Below, piece after piece: positions 2,986 to 31,289 of a DNA stretch of 64,000 nucleotides. Both the position numbers and the translations under genes were made by a program. This DNA comes from Oceaniglobus roseus (GTDB taxonomy: Bacteria; Pseudomonadota; Alphaproteobacteria; Rhodobacterales; Rhodobacteraceae): contig NZ_PNOS01000001.1 of NCBI RefSeq assembly GCF_002869745.1, positions 186,001-250,000 of the forward strand, read 5' to 3'. Numbering within the stretch: position 1 is the first letter of the stretch; each line of letters opens with the position of its first letter. Below the pieces are notes generated by a model that was not told the origin of the DNA, searched no databases, and worked only from the letters and a program-made list of their open reading frames with translations.

Positions 2986-3001
2986 CGAAGCCGGGGTCGG
3001 C

Positions 3002-4345: not shown

Positions 4346-4430
4346 GTTGCGTCCTCCCGCTGTGCTGCGAACGGTTTGTAAAGGAATGGCGGTTAAGCCT
4401 TCGTTGCGCCTGATCGAGGGAGAAACCCCG

Positions 4431-4823: not shown

Positions 4824-4834
4824 GAGGGCAGGGG

Positions 4835-5224
4835 ATGACCGACCTGATCCGCACCCTCGGGCTTTCGGCCAGCGGCATGACGGCCCAGGCGCAACGCCTG
4901 CGCCACCTGTCCGAGAACATCGCCAACGCCGACACGCCCGGCTATCGCCGCAAGACCGTCAGCTTCGACACCGTGCAACGCGGCGAGGCGGCCGGACAGG
5001 TCGAGGTCGGCAAGGTCCGCCTGGACCGAAGCGACCTGACCCGGATTCACGACCCGGGCAATCCGCTGGCCGACGCGCAGGGCAATTACGAAGGCTCGAA
5101 CGTCGACCTGGTGATCGAGATCGCGGACGCCCGCGAGGCGCAGCGCAGCTACGAGGCGAACCTGAAGATGTTCGACCAGGCCCGCCAGATGACCCAGAGC
5201 CTGCTTGACCTGCTGCGGCGATGA
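4835..5224 (+). CDS. flgC: Flagellar proximal rod protein FlgC
   Basis: This 129-residue rod protein has both terminal family signatures: LSENIANADTPGYRRKT near residues 25-41 and a C-terminal EAQRSYEANLKMFDQ helix. It builds the periplasmic rod together with FlgB, FlgF and FlgG. It begins 11 nt after flgB with an AGGAGG-like site in the gap. Length and motifs are normal. Confidence 0.95.
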   Translation: MTDLIRTLGLSASGMTAQAQRLRHLSENIANADTPGYRRKTVSFDTVQRGEAAGQVEVGKVRLDRSDLTRIHDPGNPLADAQGNYEGSNVDLVIEIADAREAQRSYEANLKMFDQARQMTQSLLDLLRR

Positions 5225-5257
5225 CCGCGGCTCCCTGATGCCGGAAGGAGATCCAGA

Positions 5258-5542
5258 ATGGATATCAACAGTCTGAAAGCGGCCCAGAGCTATGCCGCGA
5301 ACCGCCCCCTCACCGCGGCCGAGCCGGGTGTCGGGGGGAATGCCTTCACCGCCCTCGCGAAGGACTTCCTCGCGACCGTCCAGCGGGGCGAGGACACGGC
5401 GGCCGCCGCCATGACCGGCGGTGCCGATGCCCACTCCCTGGTGCAGGCGCTGGCCCAGACCGAACTGGCCGTCGAAACCGCCGTGACGGTGCGCGACAAG
5501 GTGGTCGAGGCCTACCAGGAACTCCTGCGGATGCCGGTCTGA
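5258..5542 (+). CDS. fliE: Flagellar hook-basal body complex protein FliE
   Basis: This small 94-residue protein links the MS-ring and export gate to the rod. The C-terminal half carries the FliE pattern (ADAHSLVQALAQTELAVETAVTVRDKVVEAYQEL), where a helix ends in a YQE(L/I) motif followed by a short tail. The ATG at 5258 has AAGGAG upstream. It is preceded by flgC (33-nt gap) and followed 3 nt later by fliQ, the classic flgB-flgC-fliE arrangement. Confidence 0.93.
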   Translation: MDINSLKAAQSYAANRPLTAAEPGVGGNAFTALAKDFLATVQRGEDTAAAAMTGGADAHSLVQALAQTELAVETAVTVRDKVVEAYQELLRMPV

Positions 5543-5545
5543 GCC

Positions 5546-5812
5546 ATGGGCCCCGAGCAATTCTTCGACACGCTGCGCCAGGGCCTGTGGGTGTCGGTCG
5601 TGATGTCGACGCCGATCCTGCTGGTGGCCCTTGTGGCCGGGGTCGGCGTTGGGCTGTTCCAGGCGCTGACCTCGATCCAGGAAATGACGCTGACCTTCGT
5701 GCCGAAGGTCGCCGCCATCCTGATCGTCTTCTGGGCGACGATGACCTTCATGACGGAAACCCTGGTGACGTTCTTCGACACCCAGATCGTCCCGCAGATC
5801 GCCGGAGGCTGA
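5546..5812 (+). CDS. fliQ: Flagellar export gate protein FliQ
   Basis: This 88-residue membrane protein has two transmembrane hairpin segments (about residues 15-40 and 52-75) and typical FliQ sequence between them (GLFQALTSIQEMTLTFVPK). FliQ assembles with FliP and FliR into the helical export gate. It lies 3 nt after fliE and 1 nt before flgF, so it is probably translationally coupled. In this lineage fliQ sits in the rod operon while fliP and fliR lie in two other units of the same window. Confidence 0.95.
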   Translation: MGPEQFFDTLRQGLWVSVVMSTPILLVALVAGVGVGLFQALTSIQEMTLTFVPKVAAILIVFWATMTFMTETLVTFFDTQIVPQIAGG

Positions 5813-5813
5813 G

Positions 5814-6530
5814 ATGGACAACGCGTTCTACACCACCCTCACCCGCCAGTCGGGCCTGATGCGCGAAATGCAGACGGTGGCCAACAACATCGCCAACATG
5901 GCGACGGGCGGCTTCCGCAAGGAAGGCGTGATCTTCTCGGAATACATCGAGAGGCTGGGGCGCGACGATCCCTCGCTGTCGATGTCCGCCGCCCGCGGCC
6001 GCTTCACCGACCAGAGCCAGGGGGTGCTGACCCAGACCGGCAGCACCTTCGACTTCGCGATCGAGGGACCGGGCTTCTTCCTGGTCCAGACGCCGAACGG
6101 CCAGGCCCTGACCCGCACCGGTAACTTCACCGTCTCGGCCACGGGCGAGCTGGTGAACCAGGACGGCTACCGTCTGCTCGACGGCGGCGGCGCCCCGGTC
6201 TTCGTGCCGCCGGACTCCGCCGAGGTCAGCCTGTCCTCCGACGGCACGCTCAGCGCCGCGGGCCAGCCGCTGGCCCAGATCGGCCTCTGGGACGTCTCCG
6301 ATCCGGCGGATCTGACCCACCGCGACGGCGTGCTGTTCGACATCTCAGCGCCGCCCGCGCCGGTGGCCGACGGGGTGATCCTGCAGGGCTTCCTCGAAGG
6401 CTCCAACGTCGATCCGATCGGAGAGATGTCGCGGATGATCGCGGTGCAGCGGGCCTACGAGCTGGGCCAGAGCTTTCTCGACACCGAAGACCAGCGGATC
6501 CGCAACGTGCTGACCACCCTCGGCCGCTGA
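5814..6530 (+). CDS. flgF: Flagellar basal-body rod protein FlgF
   Basis: This 238-residue rod protein of the FlgE/F/G family begins with a helix and the VANNIANMATGGFRKEG motif. It carries the central DFAIEGPGFFLVQT box and ends with the coiled-coil helix (MSRMIAVQRAYELGQSFLD). It follows fliQ by one nucleotide and precedes flgG by 25 nt. It is distinguished from flgG by position and by its shorter length and TRQSGLMREM N-terminus. Confidence 0.93.
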   Translation: MDNAFYTTLTRQSGLMREMQTVANNIANMATGGFRKEGVIFSEYIERLGRDDPSLSMSAARGRFTDQSQGVLTQTGSTFDFAIEGPGFFLVQTPNGQALTRTGNFTVSATGELVNQDGYRLLDGGGAPVFVPPDSAEVSLSSDGTLSAAGQPLAQIGLWDVSDPADLTHRDGVLFDISAPPAPVADGVILQGFLEGSNVDPIGEMSRMIAVQRAYELGQSFLDTEDQRIRNVLTTLGR

Positions 6531-6555
6531 CCCCGCCAGACACAAGGACCAGACC

Positions 6556-7341
6556 ATGCGTGCCCTCCAGATCGCCGCCACCGGGATGAGCGCCCAGCAG
6601 ATGCGGGTCGAGGTGATATCGAACAACCTCGCCAACATGAACACCACCGGCTACAACGCCCGCCGGGCCGAGTTCGCCGACCTGCACTACCAGCAGCTGA
6701 CCCGCGCCGGGTCGATCAACGCCGCCGACGGCACCCAGATCCCGACCGGGGTGCAGCTGGGGCTGGGCGTGCGCCCCGCCTCGATCAGCATGAACGTCCA
6801 GCAGGGGGCGCTGACCCAGACGGGGGGCGATCTCGACTTCGCGATCGAGGGCAACGGCTTCTTCGAGGTGACGTTGCCCTCGGGCGCCTCCGCCTATACC
6901 CGCGACGGCGGGCTGAAGCGGTCGGGCGACGGGCTGATCGTGACCTCCGACGGCCATGGCGTGGTGCCCGACATCACCATCCCGGCCGATGCCCGCGCCA
7001 TCTCGGTCAACGCCGCGGGCGAGGTCTATGCCTATTTCAACGACCAGACCCAGCCGCAGCTGCTGGGCCAGTTCTCCCTCGCCGGGTTCACAAACGTGAA
7101 GGGGCTGGAGGCGATCGGGTCGAACCTGTTCCTGGAAACCCCGGCCTCCGGGCCCGCCCTGGTGGGAACGCCGGGCACCGACGGGCTGGGCACCCTGCGG
7201 CAGGGCTATCTCGAGAACTCCTCGGTCGACGCGGTGCGCGAGATCACCCAGCTGATCGAGGCTCAGCGCGGCTACGAGCTGAACGCCAAGGTCATCACCG
7301 CCGCCGACCAGATGCTTGGCGCGACGACGCAGATCCGATGA
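6556..7341 (+). CDS. flgG: Flagellar distal rod protein FlgG
   Basis: This 261-residue distal rod subunit shows the N-terminal signature VISNNLANMNTTGYNARR, the central DFAIEGNGFFEVTLP box and the C-terminal SSVDAVREITQLIEAQRGYE, all strongly conserved in FlgG. The length matches the 260-residue norm. Its stop overlaps the flgA start as ATGA, so the two are coupled. Confidence 0.96.
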   Translation: MRALQIAATGMSAQQMRVEVISNNLANMNTTGYNARRAEFADLHYQQLTRAGSINAADGTQIPTGVQLGLGVRPASISMNVQQGALTQTGGDLDFAIEGNGFFEVTLPSGASAYTRDGGLKRSGDGLIVTSDGHGVVPDITIPADARAISVNAAGEVYAYFNDQTQPQLLGQFSLAGFTNVKGLEAIGSNLFLETPASGPALVGTPGTDGLGTLRQGYLENSSVDAVREITQLIEAQRGYELNAKVITAADQMLGATTQIR

Positions 7342-7763
7342 TCCGCGCCGCGCTTCTGTTCGCCCTCTGCACGACCCCTGCCGCGGCAGATACCCTGGCG
7401 GCGGCCCGCGTCGTGCGGGCCCAGTCGATCATCGTGCCCGAGGATCTGACATGGCTTTCCCAGGACGTCCCCGGCGCCCTTGCCGATCCGGCCGAGGTCG
7501 TGGGCAAGGAAGCGCGCGTCATGCTCTATGCCGGGCGCCCGATCCGCCCCGGCGACGTCGGCCCCCCGGCGCTGGTCGAGCGCAACCAGATCGTCAAGGT
7601 GCTGTTCCGCAACGGCCCCATCAGCATCGCCATCGAGGGCCGCGCCCTGGGCCGCGCCGCCATCGGCGAGGAGATCCGCGTGATGAACCTCGACTCCCGC
7701 ACCACCGTCAGCGGCACGGTTGCCGCCGACGGCTCTGTCATCGTGTCCCACGCCCTGCCCTGA
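7338..7763 (+). CDS. flgA: Flagellar P-ring assembly chaperone FlgA
   Basis: This 141-residue periplasmic protein has a Sec signal peptide (cleavage near TPAAADT) and a SAF-type domain containing the GRPIRPGDV segment and a C-terminal VSGTVAADGSVIV. FlgA helps FlgI assemble the P-ring. It is a short form of FlgA, lacking the long N-terminal extension of the enteric protein. It overlaps flgG by 4 nt and precedes flgH. Its partner FlgI is encoded 18 kb away. Confidence 0.9.
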   Translation: MIRAALLFALCTTPAAADTLAAARVVRAQSIIVPEDLTWLSQDVPGALADPAEVVGKEARVMLYAGRPIRPGDVGPPALVERNQIVKVLFRNGPISIAIEGRALGRAAIGEEIRVMNLDSRTTVSGTVAADGSVIVSHALP

Positions 7764-7773
7764 GGAGAGCCCC

Positions 7774-8499
7774 ATGCGCCGCACGGTCCTGATCCTGTCC
7801 TGCTGCCTGGCCGCCGCCTGCGGGCGCCTCGGCCAGATCGGCAAGGTTCCCGAGTTCAGCTCGCCCGAGACGGGGTACGAGCTCAGCGCCATGGCCAATC
7901 CCGGCCTGCCCACGGTGATCGAGCGGCGGACCGAGCTTGACGCCGCCTCGCTCTGGCGCGGCGGGCGGAAATCGCTGCTGGGCGACCGGCGGGCCGAGTC
8001 CCGCGGCGACATCCTGACCGTGGTGATCGAGATCGACGACCGGGCCGAGATCAGCAATTCGACACAGCGGTCGCGCAGCGGTGCCGAGAGCCTGGGCATG
8101 CCCTCGCTGTTCGGAATCCCGCAGCGCATCGACCGCAAGCTGCCCGAAGGCGCGTCCCTTGCCGACGCGGTGTCCACCAGCTCCACCTCGACCAGCGCCG
8201 GGGACGGTTCGGTGCGGCGCAACGAGAAGCTGACGCTGCGGGTGGCGGCGACCGTGGTGAACGAGCTGCCGAACGGCGTGCTGCAGATTCAGGGATCGCA
8301 GGAGGTGCGGGTGAACTTCGAGATCCGCGAACTGATCGTCACCGGCTATGTCCGGCCCGAGGACATCTCGCGCCAGAACGAGATCACCTATGACAAGATC
8401 GCGGCGGCCCGCATCTCCTATGGCGGGCGGGGGCAGATCACCGACGTGCAGCAGCCGCGCTATGGCCAGCAGATCGCCGACGCGATCCTGCCGTTCTGA
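7774..8499 (+). CDS. flgH: Flagellar L-ring lipoprotein FlgH
   Basis: This 241-residue outer-membrane ring subunit has a short signal ending in a lipobox (CCLAAAC, Cys near residue 16). It shows the FlgH core segments SLWRGGRKSLLGDRRAESRGDILTV (split over residues 50-75), a Ser/Thr-rich linker and the C-terminal YGGRGQITDVQQPRYGQ pattern. The ATG at 7774 is used because GAGGAGAG precedes it and it starts directly at the signal peptide; an upstream frame to 7720 overlaps flgA. Family length is normal. Confidence 0.95.
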   Translation: MRRTVLILSCCLAAACGRLGQIGKVPEFSSPETGYELSAMANPGLPTVIERRTELDAASLWRGGRKSLLGDRRAESRGDILTVVIEIDDRAEISNSTQRSRSGAESLGMPSLFGIPQRIDRKLPEGASLADAVSTSSTSTSAGDGSVRRNEKLTLRVAATVVNELPNGVLQIQGSQEVRVNFEIRELIVTGYVRPEDISRQNEITYDKIAAARISYGGRGQITDVQQPRYGQQIADAILPF

Positions 8500-8510
8500 G
8501 GGAGGCCGCG

Positions 8511-9020
8511 ATGCTGAGGAAACTGCTGCCGCTGCTGCTGGCGCTGGTCGGGCTCGGGGCCGGCGTGGTCGCCGGGATTGCCCTGCGTCCCGCGCCCTCC
8601 GAGACACCCGAAGCCGGTGCGGAGCTGGCCGCGGGCGCGCCCTGCGGCGATGTCGCGCCCCACGGCGCCGTGGCCGAGGACGCGCCGCCGGAGGAACCGA
8701 CCGAATTCGCCAAGCTGTCGAACCAGTTCGTATTCCCCTTGGTCGAGGATGGCGCGGTCTCGGCCCTGGTGGCCCTGTCCCTGACGCTGGAGGTGACGCC
8801 GGGCCAGACCAACACCGTCTTCGACCGTGAACCGAAGCTCAGGGACGGGTTCCTGCGGGTGATGCTGGATCATGCGAACGCGGGCGGCTTTCGCGGCGCC
8901 TTCACCTCGAACGACTCGATGGAGCGGCTCAGGAAGGCCCTGCTGGAAAAGGGGCGCGAGGATCTGGGCGATGTGCTGGTCGATGTCCTGATCCTCGACA
9001 TCAACCGTCAGGAGGTCTGA
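8511..9020 (+). CDS. FliL-like basal-body-associated protein (second copy)
   Basis: This 169-residue protein has an N-terminal transmembrane helix (about residues 5-27), an acidic Pro/Ala linker, and a FliL-type domain starting at FAKLSNQFVFPLVEDG and ending in VLVDVLILDINRQEV. FliL proteins surround the stator units next to the MS-ring and support torque. It is the last gene of the rod operon, 11 nt after flgH. A second, more typical FliL is encoded at 17984-18472. The two share topology and domain but little obvious sequence, so they are probably ancient paralogues with different roles. Confidence 0.8.
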   Translation: MLRKLLPLLLALVGLGAGVVAGIALRPAPSETPEAGAELAAGAPCGDVAPHGAVAEDAPPEEPTEFAKLSNQFVFPLVEDGAVSALVALSLTLEVTPGQTNTVFDREPKLRDGFLRVMLDHANAGGFRGAFTSNDSMERLRKALLEKGREDLGDVLVDVLILDINRQEV

Positions 9021-9125
9021 GAAGACCCGCAAGCGGCCCTCCGTGATGCCCGCCACGCCCCGGACGCTTGCAGGCCGAGCGGGCGCAAGGTCGAGGGGGA
9101 GAGACGCCTCAACGCCTGGAACCGT

Positions 9126-9157
9126 CCGGGAGGTGCGGCCGCGATTGCGCCTCCCGG
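9126..9157. terminator. Hairpin between convergent flagellar units
   Basis: The arms CCGGGAGGTGC and GCGCCTCCCGG pair over 11 bp (one G-T) around a 10-nt loop. It lies in the 198-nt gap where the fliL2 and fliJ-like genes converge, so it could stop both transcripts. There is no T-run. The rest of the gap shows nothing else. Confidence 0.5.
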
Positions 9158-9218
9158 CGGGCGTCCCCGATCGGCCGTTCGTGCGCAGCCTGTCGTTCAT
9201 CCGCCGGTCGGCACGGGC

Positions 9219-9575
9219 CTACCGGCGGTCCTTGTCCAGCCGTTCCGCCAGAAGACGCAGGGCTTCCGCCCGTCCGAAGGACCGGCGCGCGGCGCCGAGA
9301 TAGGCTTCCCGCGCGGCGGCCAGGCCTGCCTGCCGACGCTGCAATCCGCGCAGCATCTCCGCGCTCGACGCCTGCCAGGTCACATCCGCCCCCGATAGCC
9401 GCGAAGGATCCAGCGCCAGGTCGGCCTCACGGGCGCGGGTGCTGGCGCGAATCGCGTCGATGCCCGTCTGCAGGGCCGCCATGCGGGAGGCGATGCGGCT
9501 CAGATCCTGCAGATCCGCGTCGCGCTTCATCTCGGCAAGGGCCCTGAGGCGGGCAAGATCCCGGGGTTTCACCAT
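9219..9575 (-). CDS. FliJ-like coiled-coil protein (candidate)
   Basis: This 118-residue protein is almost wholly helical and charged: it starts MVKPRDLARLRALAEMKRDADL, has heptad-like spacing throughout, and no membrane segment. Size, coiled-coil character and position directly behind flhB suggest the FliJ role, an export-ATPase stalk and chaperone escort working with FliI and FliH. Primary similarity to FliJ is not evident, and it could be a separate flagellar chaperone. The ATG at 9575 overlaps the end of flhB by 7 nt. It is the last gene of the long fliL-flhB operon. Confidence 0.6.
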   Translation of the reverse strand: MVKPRDLARLRALAEMKRDADLQDLSRIASRMAALQTGIDAIRASTRAREADLALDPSRLSGADVTWQASSAEMLRGLQRRQAGLAAAREAYLGAARRSFGRAEALRLLAERLDKDRR

Positions 9576-10648
9576 CTGCGGGCCTTCCGCCGCATCTCCT
9601 CGGCGAAGCGGATCGCCACGGCCACGGCAGCGTAGTGGTCGGGCCGGATCTCCTCGCCGAGGCGGAGGGTGGCGTGCAGCAGCCGCGCGGTCGCCGGATC
9701 GCTGTGCAGCGGGATCCCGTGCTCGGCCGCCCGTTCCCGGATCCGCGCCGCGATCTCGTCCACCCCCTTGGCCACGCAGACCGGCGCTCGGCCCGCGGCG
9801 CGTGTCCATTCCAGCGCCACGGCATAGTGGGTCGGGTTGACGATCACCACGCTGGCCTTCTGCACGTCGGCCAGCATCGAGTTCATCGCGATGTCGTACC
9901 CCTTCTGGCGCCGCTGCTGCTTCATCTGCGGATCGCCCTCGCTCTGTTTCGCCTCATCGCGCAGATCCTTGTGGGACATGCGGTTCCTGCGCATGTGCTC
10001 GGCCCGCTGCCACAGGAAGTCGACCGCGCCAAGCGCCGTTGCGACGGCCAGCACCAGCATCAGGAAGCTGACCGAGAGGTGCAGCATCTTCAGGGTGATC
10101 TGCCCCGGCGTCAGCGCGATGCTGTTCAGGATCGACGGCATCCGCGCCCAGAGGAAACTGCCGAGGATCGCCGAGTAGATGACGAGCTTGACGAAGCTCT
10201 TGGCGAACTCGAACAGCCCGCCGCGCCCGAACTTGTTCCGGGCATTGCCGAGCAGCGAGATCCGGCTGAACTTCGGTGCGATCTTCGAGGGCGTGACCGT
10301 GAACGCCTGCTGGGCGAAGACGCACAGGAGGACGGCCGCGGTCGGCAGAAGCAGGAACGGGGCGAGGTCGACCGCGATCTCGGCCATCAAGGCGCCGGAC
10401 AGGGCCGGCCCGCTGCCGGTGAAGATCTGGTCCGACAGCTGGACCGGGCGGATCAGGAGGCCCGAGAGGCTCTTGCCGAAGGCCGAGAGCGTTCCGGCGC
10501 CAAGGGCCGCGGCGGCCATCAGGAAGCCGGCATAGCCCGCCGCCGTGAAAAGGTCGGTCGAGCGCGGGATCTCGCCCTTCTTGCGCGCATCCTCGAGCTT
10601 CTTCTGCGAGGGTTCGTGCTGCTTGTCCTCGTCGCTGTCGTCGCTCAT
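9569..10648 (-). CDS. flhB: Flagellar export switch protein FlhB
   Basis: FlhB is the export-gate protein whose cytosolic domain self-cleaves to switch from rod/hook to filament substrates. The 359-residue protein starts with the charged DKQHEPSQKKLEDARKKGEIP segment, has four transmembrane helices, then the cytosolic domain with the autocleavage motif NPTH at residues 271-274. The ATG at 10648 overlaps the fliR stop by 4 nt (ATGA). Length and motif are normal, so the switch should be functional. Confidence 0.96.
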   Translation of the reverse strand: MSDDSDEDKQHEPSQKKLEDARKKGEIPRSTDLFTAAGYAGFLMAAAALGAGTLSAFGKSLSGLLIRPVQLSDQIFTGSGPALSGALMAEIAVDLAPFLLLPTAAVLLCVFAQQAFTVTPSKIAPKFSRISLLGNARNKFGRGGLFEFAKSFVKLVIYSAILGSFLWARMPSILNSIALTPGQITLKMLHLSVSFLMLVLAVATALGAVDFLWQRAEHMRRNRMSHKDLRDEAKQSEGDPQMKQQRRQKGYDIAMNSMLADVQKASVVIVNPTHYAVALEWTRAAGRAPVCVAKGVDEIAARIRERAAEHGIPLHSDPATARLLHATLRLGEEIRPDHYAAVAVAIRFAEEMRRKARRW

Positions 10649-11418
10649 GGCGCCCCGGCGAAGGGGACGGCGAGGAAACGGTCCAGCGCGTCGGACCACT
10701 CCGACAGGATCAGCGGCAGGGCGATGGCAAGGATGGCAAGCCCGGCCGCGGTGATCGCCGGGGCGCCGACGAAGGCGACCATCAGCTGCGGCATGGCGCG
10801 GTTGATGACCCCGAGCGCGAGGTTGTAGACCAGCGAGGCGATGATGAACGGCGCGGCAAGGCTGAAGGCCAGGGAAAAGACCTGTGCGACATGATCGACG
10901 GCCCAGGTCAGCAGATCCTCGGCCGGCGGCGGCTGGCCGGGCGGCAGGACGTCGTAGGACAGCAGGAACAGCATCACCAGCTTGACGTGCAACCCCAGCA
11001 TCGCGGCAAGCGCCAGGCCGCCGATCACCATGATGTGGCCGATGGCGGGCATCGGATCCGCCGCCTGTCCGCCGAAGATCTGCGCGAGCGAGGTCGCCTG
11101 TGCCGCCATCGACCCGGCGATCATCAGGCCCAGGACGAACAGCCGCAGCATCGCGCCCAGGGCCAGGCCGATCACGGTCTCCGACAGCAGCAGCCGGTCC
11201 CACCGTGGCGCGCGCGCCAGGTCGGGCATCTGCGACACCACGGCCGGGGCGACGATCGCGGTCAGCCCCAGGGCCAGCACCAGCCGCACGCGCATCGGCA
11301 CGACCCGTTCGCCGAACACCGGCAGCAGCGCCGCGGCGGCACCGACGCGCAGGAACACGACGAAGCCGAGCGTGAGGAACGCCTGGACCTCGGCCAGGAC
11401 CTGCGCCGCCCCGGTCAT
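10645..11418 (-). CDS. fliR: Flagellar export gate protein FliR
   Basis: This 257-residue integral membrane protein has about six hydrophobic segments. FliR hallmarks include FFLRVGAAAALLPVFGE-like N-terminal sequence, RLFVLGLMIAGSMAAQATSLA, and ALGVINRAMPQLMVAFVGAP near the C-terminus. FliR joins the FliP5-FliQ4 gate. It overlaps flhA upstream and flhB downstream by 4 nt each. The ATG at 11418 gives the family length; the longer frame lies inside flhA. Confidence 0.95.
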   Translation of the reverse strand: MTGAAQVLAEVQAFLTLGFVVFLRVGAAAALLPVFGERVVPMRVRLVLALGLTAIVAPAVVSQMPDLARAPRWDRLLLSETVIGLALGAMLRLFVLGLMIAGSMAAQATSLAQIFGGQAADPMPAIGHIMVIGGLALAAMLGLHVKLVMLFLLSYDVLPPGQPPPAEDLLTWAVDHVAQVFSLAFSLAAPFIIASLVYNLALGVINRAMPQLMVAFVGAPAITAAGLAILAIALPLILSEWSDALDRFLAVPFAGAP

Positions 11419-13496
11419 GCCGCCACGACGCCGACCAGGGCGGGGCGGGAGCCGGTCCCGATCTCCTCGAAGGACAGCACCGGCGTCGCGATTCCCTTGG
11501 CCGCCATCACCATGTGGAGGAACCGGCGGCGGCGGGACGAGGTGACGAGGGCGGGCGCGATGCCGGATTCGCCGACCTTGCTGACGGTCTCGGCGATGGC
11601 GCCGGCGAGGCGGTTGAAGTCCTCCGGCGGGAGGGCGACATCGGGCGCGCCGGCCTCGGACTCGATCTGGTATGCGGCGAAGGTTTCCTCCCATTCGGGG
11701 GCGAGTTGCAGCAGGGGCAGGGTGCCGTCGGGGCGGCGGAGTTTGGCCACCAGCTGGAAGCTCAGCCGCTGGCGCACCAGTTCGCAGATCGCCTCGGGCG
11801 TGGAGCGGCTGCCCCGGGCCTCGGCTATGGTTTCCAGGATCAGCGGCAGGTTGCGGATCGAGACACGTTCGGCCAGCAGCAGGCGCAGCACTGCCAGCAG
11901 CAGGTCGACCGGCACCTTGTCCGGCACCAGTTCGTCCAGGAGGCGTCGGTTCGCCGCCGCGCGGTTCGGATCCGACAGGTTGGTGAATTCGTCCAGCAGG
12001 CGGCGCAGTGCCTTCAGCGTCAGCAGCCGCGGCAGGTTCTGCTTCATCACCTCCAGCAGATGTGTCGCCAGGACCTCGGCGGGGGTGACCGTGGTGATTC
12101 CGTCCAGCGCCGCCGCGTCCTGGGCATCGGACGGAATCCAGCGGGCGGGCGCGCCGTAGACCGGCTCGCGCACATCCTCTCCGGCGGGCAGTTCCGTCGC
12201 CTCGCCCGTGAGCGCCAGCACCTGGTTCGGGAACACCCGGTCGCGCACCTGCTCGACCCCCTGGATGCGCAGGACGTAGGTGCCCCGGGGCAGCGAGGCG
12301 TCGTCGGTCAGCCGGATCTCGGGCAGGATCACGCCGTAGACGCCGGCGACGTGGCGCCGCATGTTGCCGATCCGCGCGTCGAGACCCGTCGCAGGGTCCA
12401 GCACCATCGGCACGAGGTCCGCGGCGAATTCGAGGTGGATGTCGTCGAGATCCAGGATGTCGCCCATCGCCATCTCGACCGGCGCGCCCGGATCCTCCTT
12501 CGGGCGTTCCGGCGTGGCGCGGGCCGCGGCCGCCCTGCGGCGCACCTGCCAGGACAGGGCGCCAAGGGCCAGGCCGCAGACCATGAACGGAAGGAACGGC
12601 AGGCCCGGCACCAGCGCGAACAGGATCATCAGCAGCGCCACGGTGCCGAGCGCGGAGGGGAAGCGGCCGAGCTGGCTGAAGATCGCGGTGTCGGTCGATC
12701 CGGTCTCCCCGCCCCGTGCCAGCAGCAGCGCCGAGGCGATGGAAATGATCACGGCGGGAATCTGCGTCACCAGACCGTCGCCGACCGTCAGGATCGCGTA
12801 GGTCTCGAACGCGCGGCCCAGCGGCATGCCGTGGACCGCGACGCCGATGAGAAGGCCCATGACGAGGTTCAGCAAGGTGATCAGCAGGCCGGCGACCGCA
12901 TCGCCCTTGACGAATTTCGACGCGCCGTCGAGGGAGCCGAAAAAGGTGGTTTCCTGCTGTTCCCTTTCGCGCCGCCGCTTCGCTTCGGCATGGTCGATGG
13001 CGCCGGCCGACATGTCACTGTCGATGGCCAGCTGCTTGCCCGGCATCCCGTCCAGCGCGAATCGGGCGCCGACCTCCGCCATGCGCGCGGCGCCCTTGGT
13101 GATGACGACGAAGTTCACGATCATCAGAACGCCGAAGACGACAAGGCCGAGAAACAGGTTGCCGCCCATGACGAACATGGCGAACCCCTCGATCACGTCG
13201 CCGGCCGCGCCGGTGCCGGTGTGGCCCTGGCCGATGATCAGCTTCGTCGACGAGACGTTCAGCGACAGGCGCAGCATCAGCGAGGCGAGGAGGATCGTCG
13301 GGAAGGCCGAGAATTCCAGCGGGCGTTCGATGAACAGGGTCAGCGTGAACATCAGGATCGCGAGCGCGAAGGACACCGAGAGTCCCGCATCGAGCACCCA
13401 GGCGGGCATCGGCAGGATCATCATCACGATGACGCCCATGAGCGCCAGCGCGAGAAGGATGGTCGGCTGGAACAGGGTGCGGATGCTGAAGGTCAT
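11415..13496 (-). CDS. flhA: Flagellar export gate protein FlhA
   Basis: FlhA is the largest gate component: its transmembrane part uses the proton motive force and its cytosolic ring docks chaperone-substrate complexes. The 693-residue protein has eight hydrophobic segments in the first half. The strongly conserved FHIPEP region (LMLRLSLNVSSTKLIIGQG, then VITKGAARMAEVGARFALDG near residues 125-160) is followed by a cytosolic domain from about residue 330. Length is normal. The start ATG at 13496 overlaps the stop of a small candidate ORF upstream (13493-13852). Confidence 0.97.
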   Translation of the reverse strand: MTFSIRTLFQPTILLALALMGVIVMMILPMPAWVLDAGLSVSFALAILMFTLTLFIERPLEFSAFPTILLASLMLRLSLNVSSTKLIIGQGHTGTGAAGDVIEGFAMFVMGGNLFLGLVVFGVLMIVNFVVITKGAARMAEVGARFALDGMPGKQLAIDSDMSAGAIDHAEAKRRREREQQETTFFGSLDGASKFVKGDAVAGLLITLLNLVMGLLIGVAVHGMPLGRAFETYAILTVGDGLVTQIPAVIISIASALLLARGGETGSTDTAIFSQLGRFPSALGTVALLMILFALVPGLPFLPFMVCGLALGALSWQVRRRAAAARATPERPKEDPGAPVEMAMGDILDLDDIHLEFAADLVPMVLDPATGLDARIGNMRRHVAGVYGVILPEIRLTDDASLPRGTYVLRIQGVEQVRDRVFPNQVLALTGEATELPAGEDVREPVYGAPARWIPSDAQDAAALDGITTVTPAEVLATHLLEVMKQNLPRLLTLKALRRLLDEFTNLSDPNRAAANRRLLDELVPDKVPVDLLLAVLRLLLAERVSIRNLPLILETIAEARGSRSTPEAICELVRQRLSFQLVAKLRRPDGTLPLLQLAPEWEETFAAYQIESEAGAPDVALPPEDFNRLAGAIAETVSKVGESGIAPALVTSSRRRRFLHMVMAAKGIATPVLSFEEIGTGSRPALVGVVAA

Positions 13497-13852
13497 GGGC
13501 CGTCACCGGACGCCATGATGCAGCAGGGGCGACCCTTGGGAAGAGCGGCCCGCAACGAGATCCCGAGGCGGTGCATCCAGCGCTCCGTCTCGGTAACCCG
13601 CCGGATCTGCGGTGTGTTTCCTTCCCGCCGACCCTGCCGAGCGACGTCGGCAGTGCATGCCACGCGCCCGCCTGCATTGCCGCCCGGAACATGGACGGAA
13701 GGCTTGCGAACGCATCCGACTGCGAGGTGCGCGGGCGCGGGACGCCGATTTGAAAAAGATGTCATGATCTGCCTTGCGTTCTGCAAGCTGCCGTCGTGCC
13801 AGCCTTGTCCGGTGGGCCTTAAGAAAGCGTTGGCGCGGGAATGCCCCATCAT
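13493..13852 (-). CDS. Candidate small ORF between the 711-aa gene and flhA
   Basis: A 119-codon frame exactly fills the gap before flhA. Its ATG overlaps the stop of the preceding gene as ATGA and its TGA overlaps the flhA start as ATGA, the same coupling used by most neighbours. The product (starts MMGHSRANAFL, basic, no hydrophobic segment, five Cys) resembles nothing I recognise. Its third codon positions are only moderately G/C-rich (about 70% by my hand count) and positions 1 and 2 look similar. That is weak coding evidence in this genome. It may be a real lineage-specific gene, a remnant, or a chance frame in a 350-nt gap holding an internal promoter. Confidence 0.25.
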   Translation of the reverse strand: MMGHSRANAFLRPTGQGWHDGSLQNARQIMTSFSNRRPAPAHLAVGCVRKPSVHVPGGNAGGRVACTADVARQGRREGNTPQIRRVTETERWMHRLGISLRAALPKGRPCCIMASGDGP

Positions 13853-15984
13853 CCCCCGGTCTGCAGCAGGTTCTGCAGGGCGCGCCGCCGCTCGCGGCTT
13901 GCGCCCAGCAGATCGCGGTTGCGCGCGAGAAGACCGGTTGGAGCCTCGGGTATCGCGACAGTAGTTTCCGCCGGGGGTGACGGGAGATCGGGGACCGCAT
14001 CCGGTCGTGCGGCTGCCTTCTTTAGCAGCGCCTGGGCTTCCTGATCCTCCAGGCCGGCCAGATAGCTTTCGGCGATCCGTGGCCGATCCTCCATCAGGGC
14101 GATCCGCGCCAGAAGGATCCTTTCTCGTGGTTTCGGGATTGCCAGGTTTACGCCGAGGGCCTTGCGCGCCTGCTCCGGCAGACGGAGCGCGACCAATCGG
14201 TCCGCCACCGCGAGCCGGGCCGCCGATCCGAGCGGTGCTTCGCCAAGGGCCGGCAAAGCCAGTTCGAGAAACGTCGCGTCGTCCGACCGCTTGGCCAGCG
14301 CGGCGAACGTGCGATCGCGCAGTTGCTCCGCAGTCTCCGGCGGAAGCGCTTCGCGGCTCTGCCCGTCGCGCAGATCCGCGAGTGCCTCGGCATAGCGCTG
14401 CTCGTGAACCAGCGCCTCGACGATCCTGGCCGTCAGGGCCTGCCCGGCGGGGTCCGCTTCCAGTTCGAAGGCCAGGGCGCGGGCGCTGTCCAGCAGGTCG
14501 TCGCCGACCGATCCGTTGGATTCGATCCGCGAGGCGATCAGGTCCGCAAGCGCGCCTGCCGCTTCCACGGTGCGTGAGGCGGCGATTTCGGCCAGGATCG
14601 GCTCTGCCGACCGATGGTCGCCGACATCCAGCCGAAGCTGGGCTTCGAGCATGGCGGCTTCCGGCGTGGGTCCGGAACCGCCCCGTTCCACGGCATTGCG
14701 CGCGGCAAGGGCTGCGTCGCGGTCGCCTGCGTCGAGGAACTTCCGTGCAATTCTCGGTCCGAGGTGGCGGCGCAGGTGCGGCGGCCAGGCCGAGAGCGTC
14801 CGCAGGATCGCCTCGGTGTTCATGCGCGTATCTGGGGTCACGGCATCCTGCGCCAGAAGCCCCCAGAGCGCGCCGGGCGAATTGCAGTCGATCTGCCGGG
14901 CGATGACGCTCCGCTCCGGAACGGTATCGCCATCCATGATCCGGCCCATGTCCTCGAGGATATCGCGATCGGGAATGTCGGCGGGGCCTTCCCGGATGGC
15001 GGATCGGGCCTCGGCACCGAAAGTGCGATACAGCATGTCGCGGGCTAAGTTGCGATAGGCTGCGGCATCCGGCCGGTCGCGCGCGTCGAACAGGGCCGCA
15101 TAGGCCGCCCCGACGCTTCGCGACAGCTGCTCCGGTTCGTACCAGCTGCCGACGTCGAACAATTCGTCGTCCAGGCAGAGATGCGGCGGCGTCCCGTCCA
15201 AGGACCCGGTCCGGGCCCGGCGGTCCCGGTCCACCTGGGTCTCGATCCGCATATGTGCTCCGGGCAGCGGAGCAGGTTCGGGCGGCGGTGGTGTTGCTTC
15301 GGCCTCGGCGGCCGGTTGCGTGGACCTCAGCAGCTGGTCGAGCCGCCCGGTGTCCATCTTCACCATGCCTTGCGTCATCCCGTGCGCAATCTGCGCAATC
15401 AGTTCCTCGCGTAACGCGGTGACCCGCTCCACCGCCGCCTGGTCGGGCCCCTCCGCCGAATCCCTCGGCGGCCCGCCCAGGGCTGCAAGGTCCAGCGATG
15501 CCGCGGGGGGTGGCAGAACGACCGGCAGACGGAGCGACGCCATGTCGCGTGAGAGGGCTGGCGTGATCTCCCCGGGATCGAGCACGATGTTGTAGGGGTC
15601 GTCCGGTGCGGGCGCTCCATCTCGCACGTCGATCACGAGTCCCTGGTTCGGAAGTTCAATCACCGACAGGTTGCAGACGCAGCCCAGCGTTATCCCCAGC
15701 CTGCCGTCGCCCAGGTCCTCGAGCCGTTGCAGGCGATCGGCATAGATCCGGCGGTAGATGTCCGACAGGTCGTAGGCGCCGGTCCCCGGCGCCCGCAGCT
15801 CGTACCGGTCCCCTGCGCGCCCCAGACGCCAGTCCGGCCTGCGGGGAAAGTCCACCACGATGCGGGTGAAGCCATCATGCTCGGCCGTGCGGACCGGAAC
15901 CCCCTGGGCGCGGGCGGCGGATGCCAGAAGCAGGAGGGCCAGAGCGGCGCCGACCAGCGATGGAGGGATGCCGTACCGGGTCAT
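13849..15984 (-). CDS. Large periplasmic protein of flagellar motor operon, unknown function
   Basis: This 711-residue protein has a Sec signal peptide (cleavage near ASAARAQG). An N-terminal AMIN-like beta domain follows (about residues 30-130, with TRIVVDFPRRPDW), and then from about residue 330 a long helical TPR-like repeat region to near the C-terminus. It is therefore periplasmic and probably binds peptidoglycan or other envelope parts. It overlaps motA upstream by 4 nt and lies in the operon fliL-hyp-motE-motA. Comparison with Sinorhizobium, where MotE is the folding chaperone of periplasmic MotC, suggests this protein is the MotC counterpart, but I cannot show homology. Confidence 0.6.
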   Translation of the reverse strand: MTRYGIPPSLVGAALALLLLASAARAQGVPVRTAEHDGFTRIVVDFPRRPDWRLGRAGDRYELRAPGTGAYDLSDIYRRIYADRLQRLEDLGDGRLGITLGCVCNLSVIELPNQGLVIDVRDGAPAPDDPYNIVLDPGEITPALSRDMASLRLPVVLPPPAASLDLAALGGPPRDSAEGPDQAAVERVTALREELIAQIAHGMTQGMVKMDTGRLDQLLRSTQPAAEAEATPPPPEPAPLPGAHMRIETQVDRDRRARTGSLDGTPPHLCLDDELFDVGSWYEPEQLSRSVGAAYAALFDARDRPDAAAYRNLARDMLYRTFGAEARSAIREGPADIPDRDILEDMGRIMDGDTVPERSVIARQIDCNSPGALWGLLAQDAVTPDTRMNTEAILRTLSAWPPHLRRHLGPRIARKFLDAGDRDAALAARNAVERGGSGPTPEAAMLEAQLRLDVGDHRSAEPILAEIAASRTVEAAGALADLIASRIESNGSVGDDLLDSARALAFELEADPAGQALTARIVEALVHEQRYAEALADLRDGQSREALPPETAEQLRDRTFAALAKRSDDATFLELALPALGEAPLGSAARLAVADRLVALRLPEQARKALGVNLAIPKPRERILLARIALMEDRPRIAESYLAGLEDQEAQALLKKAAARPDAVPDLPSPPAETTVAIPEAPTGLLARNRDLLGASRERRRALQNLLQTGG

Positions 15985-16844
15985 GCCGCCTTCGCACCTT
16001 TCAGTGATTCCTCGAGCTCGCTGAACCCGGGGCGCATGTGATGCGGGGTGTTCTGGCGGCCGACCTCGATGCAGATGCTGGGCGAGTGGTTGTGGAGGTT
16101 GGCGACCAGCACCTCGCGGATCAGCTGGTGGAAATGGGCGTCCTCCTCGATCACCGTCTTCACCCGCGCGGCGAAGGGGCCAACCAGACCGTAGGCCAGG
16201 AAGACGCCCAGGAAGGTTCCCACGAGCGCCCCGCCGATCATCTTGCCAAGAACCTCGGGCGGCTGGTCGATCGAGCCCATGGTCTTGATGACGCCGAGAA
16301 CGGCCGCCACGATGCCGAGCGCGGGAAGACCGTCGGCGACGCTCTGCAGAGCGTGGCTGGAGTGCATGGCGTGATGCAGGTTGGCCTCCATCCGTTTCTC
16401 CAGCACCTCCTCCACCTGGTGGGGATCGTCATAGTTCATCGAGGCCGAGCGGAGCGTGTCGCAGATCAGTTCGACCGCTTCGTGATCCTTCTGGATCTTC
16501 GGATAGCGACCGAAGATCTCGCTGCTGTCGGGGCCTTCGATATGTTCTTCCAGGCCGACCGGGTTCTGCTTGGCGAGCCGGATCAGCTCGTACAGCAGGC
16601 ACAGAAGGTCCCGATAATCCTGCGGTTTCCAGTGCGGGCCCTTGAAGACCTTGCCGATGTCCCGGGCGGTCCGTTTCACCGAGGGTCCGTCGTTGGACAG
16701 CAGGAACGCGCCCACCGCGGCGCCGCCGATCATCGCAAGTTCGAACGGCAGGGACTTCAGGATGATGCCCATCTTTCCCCCGGCGGCGATGTAGCCGCCG
16801 AAGACCATCACGAAAATGACGGCGATTCCGATCATTCCGAACAT
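15981..16844 (-). CDS. motA: Flagellar stator protein MotA
   Basis: This 287-residue stator subunit has four transmembrane segments: two at the N-terminus (FVMVFGGYIAAGG and a second at about residues 33-50) and two near residues 165-220. The cytosolic loop between them contacts FliG. The LPALGIVAAVLGVIKTMG and GKMIGGALVGTFLGVFLAYG segments are diagnostic of the channel helices. With MotB (encoded 14 kb away) it forms the proton channel. Its stop overlaps the start of the 711-residue gene by 4 nt; AAGGAG precedes its ATG. Confidence 0.96.
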   Translation of the reverse strand: MFGMIGIAVIFVMVFGGYIAAGGKMGIILKSLPFELAMIGGAAVGAFLLSNDGPSVKRTARDIGKVFKGPHWKPQDYRDLLCLLYELIRLAKQNPVGLEEHIEGPDSSEIFGRYPKIQKDHEAVELICDTLRSASMNYDDPHQVEEVLEKRMEANLHHAMHSSHALQSVADGLPALGIVAAVLGVIKTMGSIDQPPEVLGKMIGGALVGTFLGVFLAYGLVGPFAARVKTVIEEDAHFHQLIREVLVANLHNHSPSICIEVGRQNTPHHMRPGFSELEESLKGAKAA

Positions 16845-16901
16845 GGGGCAGGTGTCTCCTTCTGAAAGGTCGGTGCGATCCGGCGCAAGGACAGTGTCCG
16901 G

Positions 16902-17495
16902 TCATTCCTTGGGGGCGTTGGCATTGCGCCCGGCGAGCACAACGCTGATCGAATAGGCGGCCTCCGCCGACAGTCCCCCGATCACCTTGGCGGCGGCGTC
17001 GGGACGCATCCGGCCAAGAAAGCCCGCGGCGAAATCCGGGGCCATCGTCTCGAACAGGGCGGCGGCCTCCTTGGGCTTCATATTCTCGTAGACCGCGGTC
17101 AGCCGGGCGATGTCCTCTTCCGACGCGGTGTCGGCCCGTGCCAGGGTCTGTTCCAGCTGGTCCTCCGCCGCCTTAAGTTCGGCGAGTTGCGCCGTGAGTT
17201 CCTTTTCGGCGCCGGCCAGGGCGGCCGAACGTTCGGCGATGTAGGCTTCCCGCTCTTCCACGCGTTTCTCTCGCTCGGCGAGCGCGTCCAGAACGGCGGC
17301 GACGTCCGGATCGGGGGCGCAGGCGCCCGTGTCGGCGTTCGCGTCCGAGGCAGGGCCGAGCGCCTGGACCTCGCGGGCGATGGCCTGTCCGGTTCCCCCG
17401 GCGAGGCGCAGCGCACCGGACAGGGCCAGGATCAGGGCAAGGAACGAAAGCGGCCCCAGAAGGCGCCTGCGTCCGGGATGTTTTCCGCGGGTCAT
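16902..17495 (-). CDS. motE: MotE-family flagellar protein
   Basis: This 197-residue protein has a basic N-terminus, one transmembrane or signal helix (about residues 11-32), a long coiled coil (about 70-125) and a C-terminal MgtE-N-like domain (MKPKEAAALFETMAPDFAAGFLGRMRPDAAAKVIGGL). This layout is that of MotE, described in rhizobia as a periplasmic chaperone for the motor protein MotC. It overlaps the following upstream gene by 4 nt. The symbol reflects domain family and operon position. Confidence 0.72.
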   Translation of the reverse strand: MTRGKHPGRRRLLGPLSFLALILALSGALRLAGGTGQAIAREVQALGPASDANADTGACAPDPDVAAVLDALAEREKRVEEREAYIAERSAALAGAEKELTAQLAELKAAEDQLEQTLARADTASEEDIARLTAVYENMKPKEAAALFETMAPDFAAGFLGRMRPDAAAKVIGGLSAEAAYSISVVLAGRNANAPKE

Positions 17496-17974
17496 TGCGC
17501 CTCCTCCAGCGTCGCGCTGCGGTGGCTGGCGAAGAAGGACCGGACGGGCGGCGCGGCGGTCGTGTGCGTCACGTTCCGCGGCTCCGGCTCTGTCCTGGCC
17601 GTGGGGCGCCGGAAGGGCACCGGCGCGTCCGCCGCGGCAACCTCCGGCGCAGGGTCGGGATCACGTTCGCAGACGGGGGGCGGCGCGGCATCGGCGATGT
17701 CGTGCAGCGCCGCGACGTTGAGTTCGAGCCGTCGCGCGACATCCTCTGCCCGCTGCGTCAGTTCCTCGAGCGAGCGGCCCGAAGCACCCGCCTCCGCCTG
17801 GGCGGCCTTCAGCGTCCGTGTCATGTCGTCGACCTGTGCGGACAGCACGGCAATGGCCCCGCCGACACCCTTTTCCAGGTCGGTGAAGCGGTTCAGACGG
17901 CGGGACAGGACGACGCAGTAGAATGCGGCCCCCAGAGCGCCGGCGATCATCAGGATGTCGGAGATCAGGGTCAT
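17492..17974 (-). CDS. Flagellar operon protein with one membrane helix, unknown function
   Basis: This 160-residue protein starts with a transmembrane helix (ISDILMIAGALGAAFYCVVL). A coiled coil follows (about residues 40-95, with AVLSAQVDDMTRTLKAAQAEA) and then a disordered Pro/Ala/Arg-rich tail. It lies between fliL (9-nt gap) and motE (4-nt overlap), so it is surely part of the stator-related unit. I recognise no family. Anchor plus coiled coil suggests a structural or adaptor role at the motor. Confidence 0.75.
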   Translation of the reverse strand: MTLISDILMIAGALGAAFYCVVLSRRLNRFTDLEKGVGGAIAVLSAQVDDMTRTLKAAQAEAGASGRSLEELTQRAEDVARRLELNVAALHDIADAAPPPVCERDPDPAPEVAAADAPVPFRRPTARTEPEPRNVTHTTAAPPVRSFFASHRSATLEEAQ

Positions 17975-17983
17975 GCCGGGTCC

Positions 17984-18472
17984 TCAGTTGAACACGAATT
18001 CCATGATCAGCAGGTCGCGCACGCGACCCTCGCCGACCACGACCTGGATCCGGCGCAGCATCTGAGCCCGCAGCCGCATCAGGCCGGCCGGATCCTCGAG
18101 TTCGACCGGTTCGACCGCCCGAAGGTAACTGTTCAGCACGTCGATCACCCGCGGGAGAAGCTTCGTCACCTCCTCGAGCCGGGGCTGGTCGACCTCGAGT
18201 TGCCCGAGGAACCGCAGCGCGTGGCTGCCCGATCCGAGGGAGACGAGAATTGGGTCGAGCGGGATGAACGCGATGTTCGGCATCACGGGCGCCTCGGGCG
18301 GCGGTGCCGGTTCGGCACCGGAGTCGTGTCCGCCGAGAATCATGCCGCTATGCACGGCGTAGAATCCGCCGCCGCCAAGGATCAGGGCCAGGACCCCGCC
18401 GATCAACAGCCCCTTGCGCCCGGATTTCTGCGGGGCGTGCGAGGTATCCAGTTCAGCTTCTGCTTGTGCCAT
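17984..18472 (-). CDS. fliL: Flagellar basal-body-associated protein FliL
   Basis: This 162-residue inner-membrane protein has a short cytosolic tail, one transmembrane helix (GLLIGGVLALILGGGGFYAV, about residues 20-40) and a periplasmic FliL domain with FLGQLEVDQPRLEEVTKLLPRV. It ends in the RVRDLLIMEFVFN pattern typical of FliL. FliL rings encircle stator units. It is the first gene of the long minus-strand operon and is divergent from fliF, with a CtrA-like box in the 123-nt gap. Confidence 0.92.
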   Translation of the reverse strand: MAQAEAELDTSHAPQKSGRKGLLIGGVLALILGGGGFYAVHSGMILGGHDSGAEPAPPPEAPVMPNIAFIPLDPILVSLGSGSHALRFLGQLEVDQPRLEEVTKLLPRVIDVLNSYLRAVEPVELEDPAGLMRLRAQMLRRIQVVVGEGRVRDLLIMEFVFN

Positions 18473-18520: not shown

Positions 18521-18535
18521 CTAACCGAATGTTAA
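18521..18535. promoter_or_regulatory. CtrA-like box between fliL and fliF
   Basis: CTAA, 7 nt, TTAA: one mismatch to the CtrA full site TTAA-N7-TTAA. It lies in the divergent fliL/fliF intergenic region, 61 nt before the fliF start and 49 nt before fliL, so it could serve either unit. The same arrangement occurs before flgE. Confidence 0.55.
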
Positions 18536-28948: not shown

Positions 28949-30253
28949 CTATCGCTTGAGGTTGGTCGTTTCCTGCAGCATCTCGTCGACGGTCTGGACG
29001 ACCTTGGCGTTGGAGGAATAGGCGCGCTGGGTCTGGATCAGGTTGGTCAGCTCAACCGCGACATCGGTCGTCGACGCCTCGAGCGAGTAGCCGAGCGTCG
29101 TGCCGGTGGGGCCGTCACCCGCGTCCCAGAGGAACATCGGACCGCTGTCCGCCGAGAGCTTGTAGGTCTGGTCGTCGCGCGCGGTCAGCCCGTCGGGGTT
29201 GGGCACGTCCACCAGCGGCACCTGGTAGATCGGACGGTTGAACCCGGTGTCATAGATCGCCTGCACTACGCCGTCGGGATCGATCTCGACTCCGATCAGG
29301 TTGCCGACCGGGGATCCGTTCTTGTCCAGGTTCGTCGGGGCGAAGCTGGCGGCCAGCTGGGTGGTCCCGCCGCTGTCGCCCAGTCTGCCGATCGTCATGT
29401 CGATGGTGCCGCCGCCGACGGCCAGGGGCACGCTGCCGGTGGCGGGATCGTACGCCCCGCCGGAAACGGCCGTCACGCTGGCCAGGGTGCCGCCGTCGGC
29501 CGCCGTGTCGTTGAAGGTCAGGGTGTATTCGCCGATGATGGCGCCGCCCGAGGCGGAATCGGTGATCGTCATCGTCCAGGTGTTCGAGGATCCGGTGGCG
29601 GGGACCGTGGGCGTGTAGGTAATGCTGAGGGATTCCGGCTGCCCGAGGTTGCCGAAATACTCCACCGACAGGTCCACCGGATCGCCGCTGGACCCGGCAG
29701 CCGTGTCGGCCGCGGGAAGGTTCACCCTCAGGGAGATCTGGGTCGTCGGGTTGGCGACGAACTGGTTGGTGCCGATGTTGACCGGCTCCAGCGCGGCGCT
29801 GGTGTCGCGGGTGACATTGGGCAGCGTCCCGTCCGGATCGAGCGGCCAGCCCATCAGCGCCTGGCCCGAGGCGGTAGTCAGGATGCCCGCGGAATCGGGG
29901 CGGAAGGAGGCGGTGGTCATCAGCGACAGCGGCAGCACCCCGGCCCGGCCAACCGCGACACGGTCCGTCACCGGGAGGAAGCCCCGACCCTGCACGCTGA
30001 TGTCGGTGGGGTTGCTGCTGCCCACGGTCTGGCCGCGCTGGCTGATCAGACGGTGGGTTTCGGCACGGACGCCGCCGGCGGTATAGCGCTGGCGACTTTC
30101 GCCCGAACTCACGACCATCGAGTTGAAATCGGTCTCCAGCCGCCGGTAGCCGATGGTCGACGAGTTCGCGATGTTGTCCGAGATGCTGGCCAGCCGCTGG
30201 GCGTTGGCGTTCAGCCCGGACACGCTGGCGTACAGCGAGGAGGAGATGGTCAT
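28949..30253 (-). CDS. flgE: Flagellar hook protein FlgE
   Basis: This 434-residue hook subunit has the N-terminal helix and motif SISDNIANSSTIGYRRLET and a DISVQGRGFLPV box near residues 83-94. A large Gly/Thr/Ser-rich variable domain fills the middle, and the C-terminal helix is LTNLIQTQRAYSSNAKVVQTVDEML. It follows motB by 126 nt, a gap with a CtrA-like box and a GATAAT promoter element, so hook genes may have their own promoter. The rod-type hook cap gene flgD and length-control gene fliK are not in the window. Confidence 0.95.
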   Translation of the reverse strand: MTISSSLYASVSGLNANAQRLASISDNIANSSTIGYRRLETDFNSMVVSSGESRQRYTAGGVRAETHRLISQRGQTVGSSNPTDISVQGRGFLPVTDRVAVGRAGVLPLSLMTTASFRPDSAGILTTASGQALMGWPLDPDGTLPNVTRDTSAALEPVNIGTNQFVANPTTQISLRVNLPAADTAAGSSGDPVDLSVEYFGNLGQPESLSITYTPTVPATGSSNTWTMTITDSASGGAIIGEYTLTFNDTAADGGTLASVTAVSGGAYDPATGSVPLAVGGGTIDMTIGRLGDSGGTTQLAASFAPTNLDKNGSPVGNLIGVEIDPDGVVQAIYDTGFNRPIYQVPLVDVPNPDGLTARDDQTYKLSADSGPMFLWDAGDGPTGTTLGYSLEASTTDVAVELTNLIQTQRAYSSNAKVVQTVDEMLQETTNLKR

Positions 30254-30379: not shown

Positions 30380-31234
30380 TCACTTGCCGTCGCGCAGCAG
30401 GACCAGCTCGATGCGGTTGTTGCGGACCGACAGCGGGTTGCCCGCCACCAGCTCGCGGTCGGCCAGGCCGGTGACGCGGTGCAGGCGGGCGGGATCCAGC
30501 GCGGTGCGGTCGACCAGGCGGCGCACCGCCGTGGCGCGGTCGGTCGACAGGTCCCAGACCGGGTTCACCCGCCGCACGACGGGTTCCGAGCGGACGTGGC
30601 CGTTGATCGCGATGCGGTTGTCGGCCAGCGCGAAGACGCCTGCCACGACGCCGACCAGATCCTGCAGGAGCGGCAGCGGCCGGGACGAATTGTCGTCGAA
30701 CAGCTGCTGTCCCGGCAGGTCGAACAGCTCGACCACCAGCCCGACATCGGTCACGCGGGTGACGATGTGGCGGGCCAGATCCTCGCTCACCATGCTCTCG
30801 CCGGAGCGCGCGCTCAGCTTGTTGGCCAGGTCCTCAAGCTTGCGGTTGCCCATGTCGCCCTCGGCCTCGCCGGCGCGGTCGCGGTCGACGCCGGACATGC
30901 CGCGGGCCTTGTCCTCCTCGTCGTGGTGGCGGGCCGAGGCGCCGGTGCCGTTCTTGGCCAGGCTCTCCTCCGAGAACACCGAGTCGCCGCCGAAGGAATC
31001 GTCGCCCCCGCCCGAGACGCGGGCCATCGACACCGTCGGCGCGAAATAGTCGGCGATGCCCTTCCTCTGCGTCTCGGTCGTCGCGTTCAGCAGCCACATC
31101 AGCAGGAAGAACGCCATCATCGCGGTCACGAAATCCGCATAGGCCACCTTCCACGCGCCGCCGTGATGGCCGCCGCCGCCGACCACCTTCTTGCGCTTGA
31201 TGATGATCGGCGCGTTTGCACCCGCTGTCGCCAT
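30380..31234 (-). CDS. motB: Flagellar stator protein MotB
   Basis: This 284-residue stator subunit anchors to peptidoglycan. A basic N-terminus (IIIKRKKVVGG) is followed by the plug/channel helix AYADFVTAMMAFFLLMWLL, with the proton-carrying Asp at residue 34. The C-terminal OmpA-like domain contains NRIAINGHVRSEP and WDLSTDRATAVRRLV. Gly/His repeats before the helix (GGGGHHGG) are typical of this group. The conserved Asp and no sodium-type features suggest proton drive. It heads the motB-flgE-flgK-flgL-flgI unit and is separated from motA by 14 kb. Confidence 0.95.
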   Translation of the reverse strand: MATAGANAPIIIKRKKVVGGGGHHGGAWKVAYADFVTAMMAFFLLMWLLNATTETQRKGIADYFAPTVSMARVSGGGDDSFGGDSVFSEESLAKNGTGASARHHDEEDKARGMSGVDRDRAGEAEGDMGNRKLEDLANKLSARSGESMVSEDLARHIVTRVTDVGLVVELFDLPGQQLFDDNSSRPLPLLQDLVGVVAGVFALADNRIAINGHVRSEPVVRRVNPVWDLSTDRATAVRRLVDRTALDPARLHRVTGLADRELVAGNPLSVRNNRIELVLLRDGK

Positions 31235-31289
31235 GTCTCACCCCTTTTCCCACCGTGGGCGGGTATAGGGTGGAGGGGTGAAAGGCCGA

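Follow-up and report, generated by a model that had tools for sequence, protein, structure and literature searches.

The alphaproteobacterial flagellar motor called Fla2 in Cereibacter sphaeroides relies on two periplasmic proteins, MotE and MotK, the latter first described in that organism in PLoS One in 2024 (PMC10954123). Both are essential for rotation, the respective mutants bearing paralysed flagella, and both co-localize with the hook at the flagellated pole; binding has been reported for the pairs MotE-MotK, MotE-MotB2 and MotK-MotB2, and the localization of MotK requires MotA2/MotB2 (PMC10954123). MotE possesses a single cysteine, which forms a disulphide-linked dimer and is itself essential; furthermore, MotE is lost in cells without MotK, and MotK is stable in cells without MotE (PMC10954123). 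As a MotE-sfGFP fusion is seen at the flagellar pole even when MotK is missing (PMC10954123), MotE and MotK do not constitute an obligate unit. A 2026 review of the E-ring puts MotE, FlgY and FlbB into one group and MotK, PflA and FlcB into another (PMC13023049). Among these comparable systems, Campylobacter jejuni PflA, a scaffold spoke, resembles MotK in partnering an E-ring protein (FlgY in Campylobacter) but differs from it in working with PflB. In Sinorhizobium meliloti MotE stabilizes MotC (Eggenhofer et al. 2004, as cited in PMC10954123 and PMC13023049), which the literature describes as a periplasmic, TPR-rich MotE partner needed for rotation and in these respects similar to MotK; unlike the arrangement described below, motE of S. 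meliloti lies between flgI and flgH and its product pairs with MotC, which is encoded after motB. Caulobacter crescentus offers a further parallel in CC_2058/FssB, a large secreted TPR protein encoded beside a MotE homologue, whose mutant is reported to be non-motile, although it was published as lacking BLAST similarity to MotK.

We analysed a window of 64,000 nucleotides from Oceaniglobus roseus (contig NZ_PNOS01000001.1, positions 186,001 to 250,000), within which a sequence-only reading had placed a MotE-type gene, motA and an ORF for a 711-residue protein on the minus strand. All three were confirmed: motE (16902..17495) encodes a 197-aa COG3334/E-ring family protein, motA (15981..16844) a 287-aa protein that passes the cut-off of NCBIfam TIGR03818 with 361 bits, and the third gene (13849..15984) the periplasmic 711-aa protein that we identify below as MotK. 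Upstream on the same strand are fliL, the first gene of the operon (17984..18472; Pfam FliL, 49.9 bits), and a pflI-like gene (17492..17974; DUF6468 at E 1.7e-4, under the Pfam cut-off), whose location between fliL and motE matches that in C. sphaeroides in a comparison of loci. The gene order on the minus strand is thus fliL-pflI-motE-motA-motK, with flhA (11415..13496) downstream of motK, and the 4-nt ATGA overlaps at two of its junctions, motK/motA and motE/pflI, make an operon very likely. The motA gene is the single MotA_N match in the genome; the single MotB_plug match is motB (30380..31234, minus strand), which is situated in a separate hook-gene cluster and adjoins flgE (28949..30253, minus strand). 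No gene intervenes between motB and flgE, the position taken by motC in S. meliloti, in agreement with the earlier remark that no recognisable motC is present. On the plus strand, after flgH, the window also encodes a 169-aa FliL-like membrane protein (8511-9017) with no match in Pfam or NCBIfam and no BLASTP similarity to the FliL of the operon; a gene resembling it adjoins flgH at locus L041.

By far the best explanation of this arrangement, in which we place high confidence, identifies the 711-aa protein as MotK, which partners MotE in the periplasm as part of a vertically inherited alphaproteobacterial flagellar motor; the MotE-MotK system itself is already known, having been published in 2024. 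For comparison we used a C. sphaeroides genome (G072) chosen by its reaction-centre H subunit, which is 100% identical to the query H sequence, the one that 87 PDB entries contain. This genome has the same fliL-pflI-motE-motA-motK order as the window, and its gene after motA encodes 652 aa (68.6 kDa computed) and its motE 185 aa (19.2 kDa computed), the published values being 652 aa and 68.5 kDa for MotK and 185 aa and 19.2 kDa for MotE (PMC10954123). The window MotK aligns with its C. sphaeroides counterpart by BLASTP at 32% identity over 593 columns (181 bits, E 1e-52), and a MotK profile matches the C. sphaeroides protein at E 7e-127. Beyond this sequence homology, the two share the place directly after motA, a Sec signal, an AMIN-fold N-terminal domain, a helical TPR-type region and a set of cysteines, and differ in length (652 aa in C. 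sphaeroides, 711 aa in the window). The relationship of the two MotE proteins is closer (55% identity, E 2e-49 by BLASTP), and the dimer cysteine is conserved, Cys59 of the window MotE aligning with cysteine 20 of the C. sphaeroides protein in mature-protein numbering. The 197-aa protein starts with a signal-like stretch and, like the COG3334 proteins of C. sphaeroides and S. meliloti, contains a coiled coil and an MgtE_N/ARM-type C-terminal domain, the MgtE_N match barely passing the Pfam cut-off (26.9 versus 25.9 bits). It also weakly matches the spirochaete collar protein FlbB, which has been placed with MotE in one orthologous group (PMC13023049).

The 711-aa protein had earlier been described as AMIN-like and TPR-like, which could not have been proven from a single sequence, since the Pfam AMIN-like match is sub-threshold (E 0.017) and NCBIfam gives no match; both parts are now confirmed by structure prediction, which returns an AMIN fold, a linker and a TPR superhelix. 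The AlphaFold2 model of full-length MotK, calculated with 71 homologues in the alignment, has a mean pLDDT of 85.5 and a pTM of 0.62. A signal peptide of approximately residues 1-25, ending in ASAARA (15910..15984, minus strand), is recognizable in the sequence and coincides with a helix at 8-23 in the model; the signal of C. sphaeroides MotK comprises 24 residues (PMC10954123). The following eight-stranded AMIN-fold domain (residues 29-122; 15619..15900, minus strand) reaches a pLDDT of 90.9 when modelled alone, and its structural matches include AmiC (4bin; Z 11.6, rmsd 2.7 over 99 residues), PilQ (3jc8; Z 11.5), another PilQ (Z 10.5) and the PflA N-domain (9leq; Z 7.7). Small heat-shock proteins that also matched, with lower Z, were set aside as other beta-sandwiches. 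We assign the domain to AMIN by its fold, since its sequence profile gave PilQ at E 0.02 as the sole match. The ensuing segment, from about 143 to 265, is mostly of low confidence in the model and was read as a disordered linker. It leads into a helical TPR-type superhelix (residues 270-660; 14005..15177, minus strand) with pLDDT mostly above 95, which aligns over 250-350 residues with TPR/PPR superhelices at a Z of about 13, a score also within reach of other helical repeats, and the model ends in a C-terminal helix at 685-710. The same layout has been published for MotK of C. sphaeroides (PMC10954123).

Two cysteines of the superhelix, Cys270 and Cys367 (near window positions 15177 and 14886), are conserved without exception in the 72 homologues, with counterparts at 243 and 339 in C. 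sphaeroides MotK, and a second pair, Cys102/Cys104, is present in 61 of the 72. Cys270 and Cys367 are likely to form a disulphide, a pair that does not figure where the MotK paper deals with disulphides (PMC10954123).

This succession of domains recalls the Campylobacter scaffold. Foldseek returned for the whole MotK model, as its best match, chain K of 9hmf (E 2.2e-5, probability 1.00), which has 773 residues and belongs to the periplasmic scaffold of C. jejuni, and the length of this chain fits mature PflA, which it probably is. The literature gives PflA the same order of parts, an N-terminal AMIN-type beta-sandwich, a flexible linker and a TPR superhelix. In light of this, MotE-MotK might be a spoke-and-E-ring scaffold comparable to FlgY-PflA, which fixes the radius of the stators instead of transiently activating them, as already proposed in print (PMC13023049, PMC11870540). 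Against this stand the low TM-score of the chain K match (0.14), which is expected for flexing superhelices and equally for unrelated repeats, the identification of chain K as PflA by its length, and the Z of 7.7 to the PflA N-domain, which is not above those of the small heat-shock proteins among the same matches. A MotK profile searched against PDB sequences detected no similarity to PflA, retrieving generic TPR, coatomer and unrelated proteins and no PflA up to E 1, as expected for TPR proteins. No cryo-tomograms of Fla2-type motors from Rhodobacteraceae came up in the literature. We consider the chances of such a scaffold to be evenly balanced, and it is in any case a refinement of the identification as MotK more than a competitor to it.

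For the MotE-MotK locus, our analysis shows which genes are present, their operon arrangement, their conservation and the folds predicted for the proteins; we infer that the Oceaniglobus proteins share the behaviour of their C. sphaeroides counterparts, although the identity of 32% between the two MotK proteins means that details may differ. On this analogy MotK would be exported by Sec, its AMIN domain would probably touch peptidoglycan, a long disordered linker would follow, and the TPR superhelix would dock onto both the MotE dimer and the periplasmic region of MotB. MotK might then be placed as a wall-contacting spoke or brace that links the MotE ring and the stator, an arrangement that we favour in view of the binding and localization data from C. 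sphaeroides together with the grouping in the E-ring review. Thus, the sequence-only reading was very probably right, judging by the C. sphaeroides orthologue, in viewing the 711-aa protein as a stator-associated, envelope-binding partner of MotE.

It had also cast the protein as the client of MotE. That MotE is a dedicated chaperone for the 711-aa protein, in the manner of the Sinorhizobium pair, would agree with its stabilization of MotC in S. meliloti and with the adjacency of the two genes in the window. However, in C. sphaeroides the dependence of stability is reversed, MotE being the protein that is lost when its partner is missing; MotE reaches the flagellar pole there on its own, and it is now seen as an E-ring building block (PMC13023049), making the chaperone role very unlikely. 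Another reading takes the protein for a genuine but drifted orthologue of MotC. MotC and MotK are both periplasmic, TPR-rich partners of MotE, and the 2026 review proposes that they are distant homologues despite great divergence (PMC13023049). Nevertheless, motK lies away from the motB-motC position, MotK has an AMIN domain, which MotC is said to lack (PMC13023049), and the authors of the MotK study report no MotC homologue in C. sphaeroides and keep the two apart (PMC10954123). We regard MotC orthology as improbable, if less so than the chaperone role. A search downstream of motB in 18 alphaproteobacterial genomes and in plasmid records for a motB-motC pair, meant to supply a rhizobial MotC sequence, found none that was recognisable. 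Of the MotC-like stator system initially envisaged, the MotE partner at the stator very probably stands, and the protein itself is instead MotK, with AMIN and TPR parts; overall, that interpretation is partly supported.

The identification as MotK can also be weighed against its phyletic distribution. Profile searches of 394 Rhodobacteraceae genomes, almost every one from a different genus, recovered MotK in 269 and MotE in 288; both proteins occur in 265, MotK only in 4, MotE only in 23 and neither in 102. As Fisher's test for this co-occurrence (p 8e-66) ignores shared ancestry, we rely on the plain counts, according to which MotE is found in 265 of the 269 MotK-bearing genomes and the gene pair is conserved. 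The motE-motA-motK order is unbroken in 17 of 18 relatives and is likewise found in 76 of the 80 named loci (located by a scan for MotE, with MotK then read from the neighbourhood), one of the remaining four ending at a contig end. It is conceivable that the 711-aa protein is an envelope-maintenance protein present in the operon by chance, with no role in the motor, given that AMIN and TPR domains are widespread among envelope proteins and that no Pfam family covers it. But the near-confinement of MotK to genomes with MotE, the almost constant adjacency of motK to motA and the requirement for the C. sphaeroides orthologue in rotation (PMC10954123) render this exceedingly unlikely.

Several loci depart from the common order. 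Together with the genomes that have one of the two proteins and lack the other, genome G007 counts against the identification: there motA-motK is beside flgI, and motE lies with fliL about 41 kb away. At a locus of Puniceibacterium antarcticum (L139, 5001-10561) the genes after motE encode unrelated oxidoreductases, so that motA-motK must be elsewhere, comparable to the situation in G007, or lost. In another genome (L083 of G011, 2607-11076) a diverged flagellar cluster encodes a distant MotE (E 2.5e-17) beside genes resembling pflI, fliM and fliL and lacks both MotK and a neighbouring motA, and more than 12 further Rhodobacteraceae genomes have a similarly distant MotE and no MotK. We know of no report of such MotK-less lineages. 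Beyond the family, proteins of the MotE type are widespread, occurring in 64 of 115 class-wide genomes, and a single-protein query found no MotK in 16 genomes of other families. Viral contigs yielded no MotK relatives, and plasmids a single partial match, in Paroceanicella profunda. We tentatively entertain the idea, which we consider less likely than not, that MotK is a PflA-homologous E-ring spoke locked by a Cys270-Cys367 disulphide and that the genera with a divergent MotE and no detectable MotK use another, undescribed TPR partner.

The regulatory context is similarly reminiscent of C. sphaeroides. A scan of the window for the CtrA motif TTAAN7TTAA, allowing one mismatch, gave three matches where 0.16 would be expected by chance, namely CTAACCGAATGTTAA in the fliL/fliF intergenic region (18521..18535, plus strand), a site before flgE (30307-30321) and one before motB (31279-31293). 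The location of all three shortly upstream of flagellar genes suggests that flagella in Oceaniglobus may be under CtrA control, as in C. sphaeroides, where a CtrA-like site upstream of fliL has likewise been reported (PMC10954123).

The general picture, including the link of MotK to PflA, was published between 2024 and 2026, and to it we add breadth, an independent test of the fold and an invariant cysteine pair. An unnamed 711-aa ORF that Pfam and NCBIfam had missed becomes a motor component whose orthologue has been studied experimentally, and the MotE-MotK pair spans most of the Rhodobacteraceae genera sampled. The motors of these alphaproteobacteria are thereby linked to the E-ring and to the PflA-type scaffolds visualized by cryo-ET in Campylobacter.
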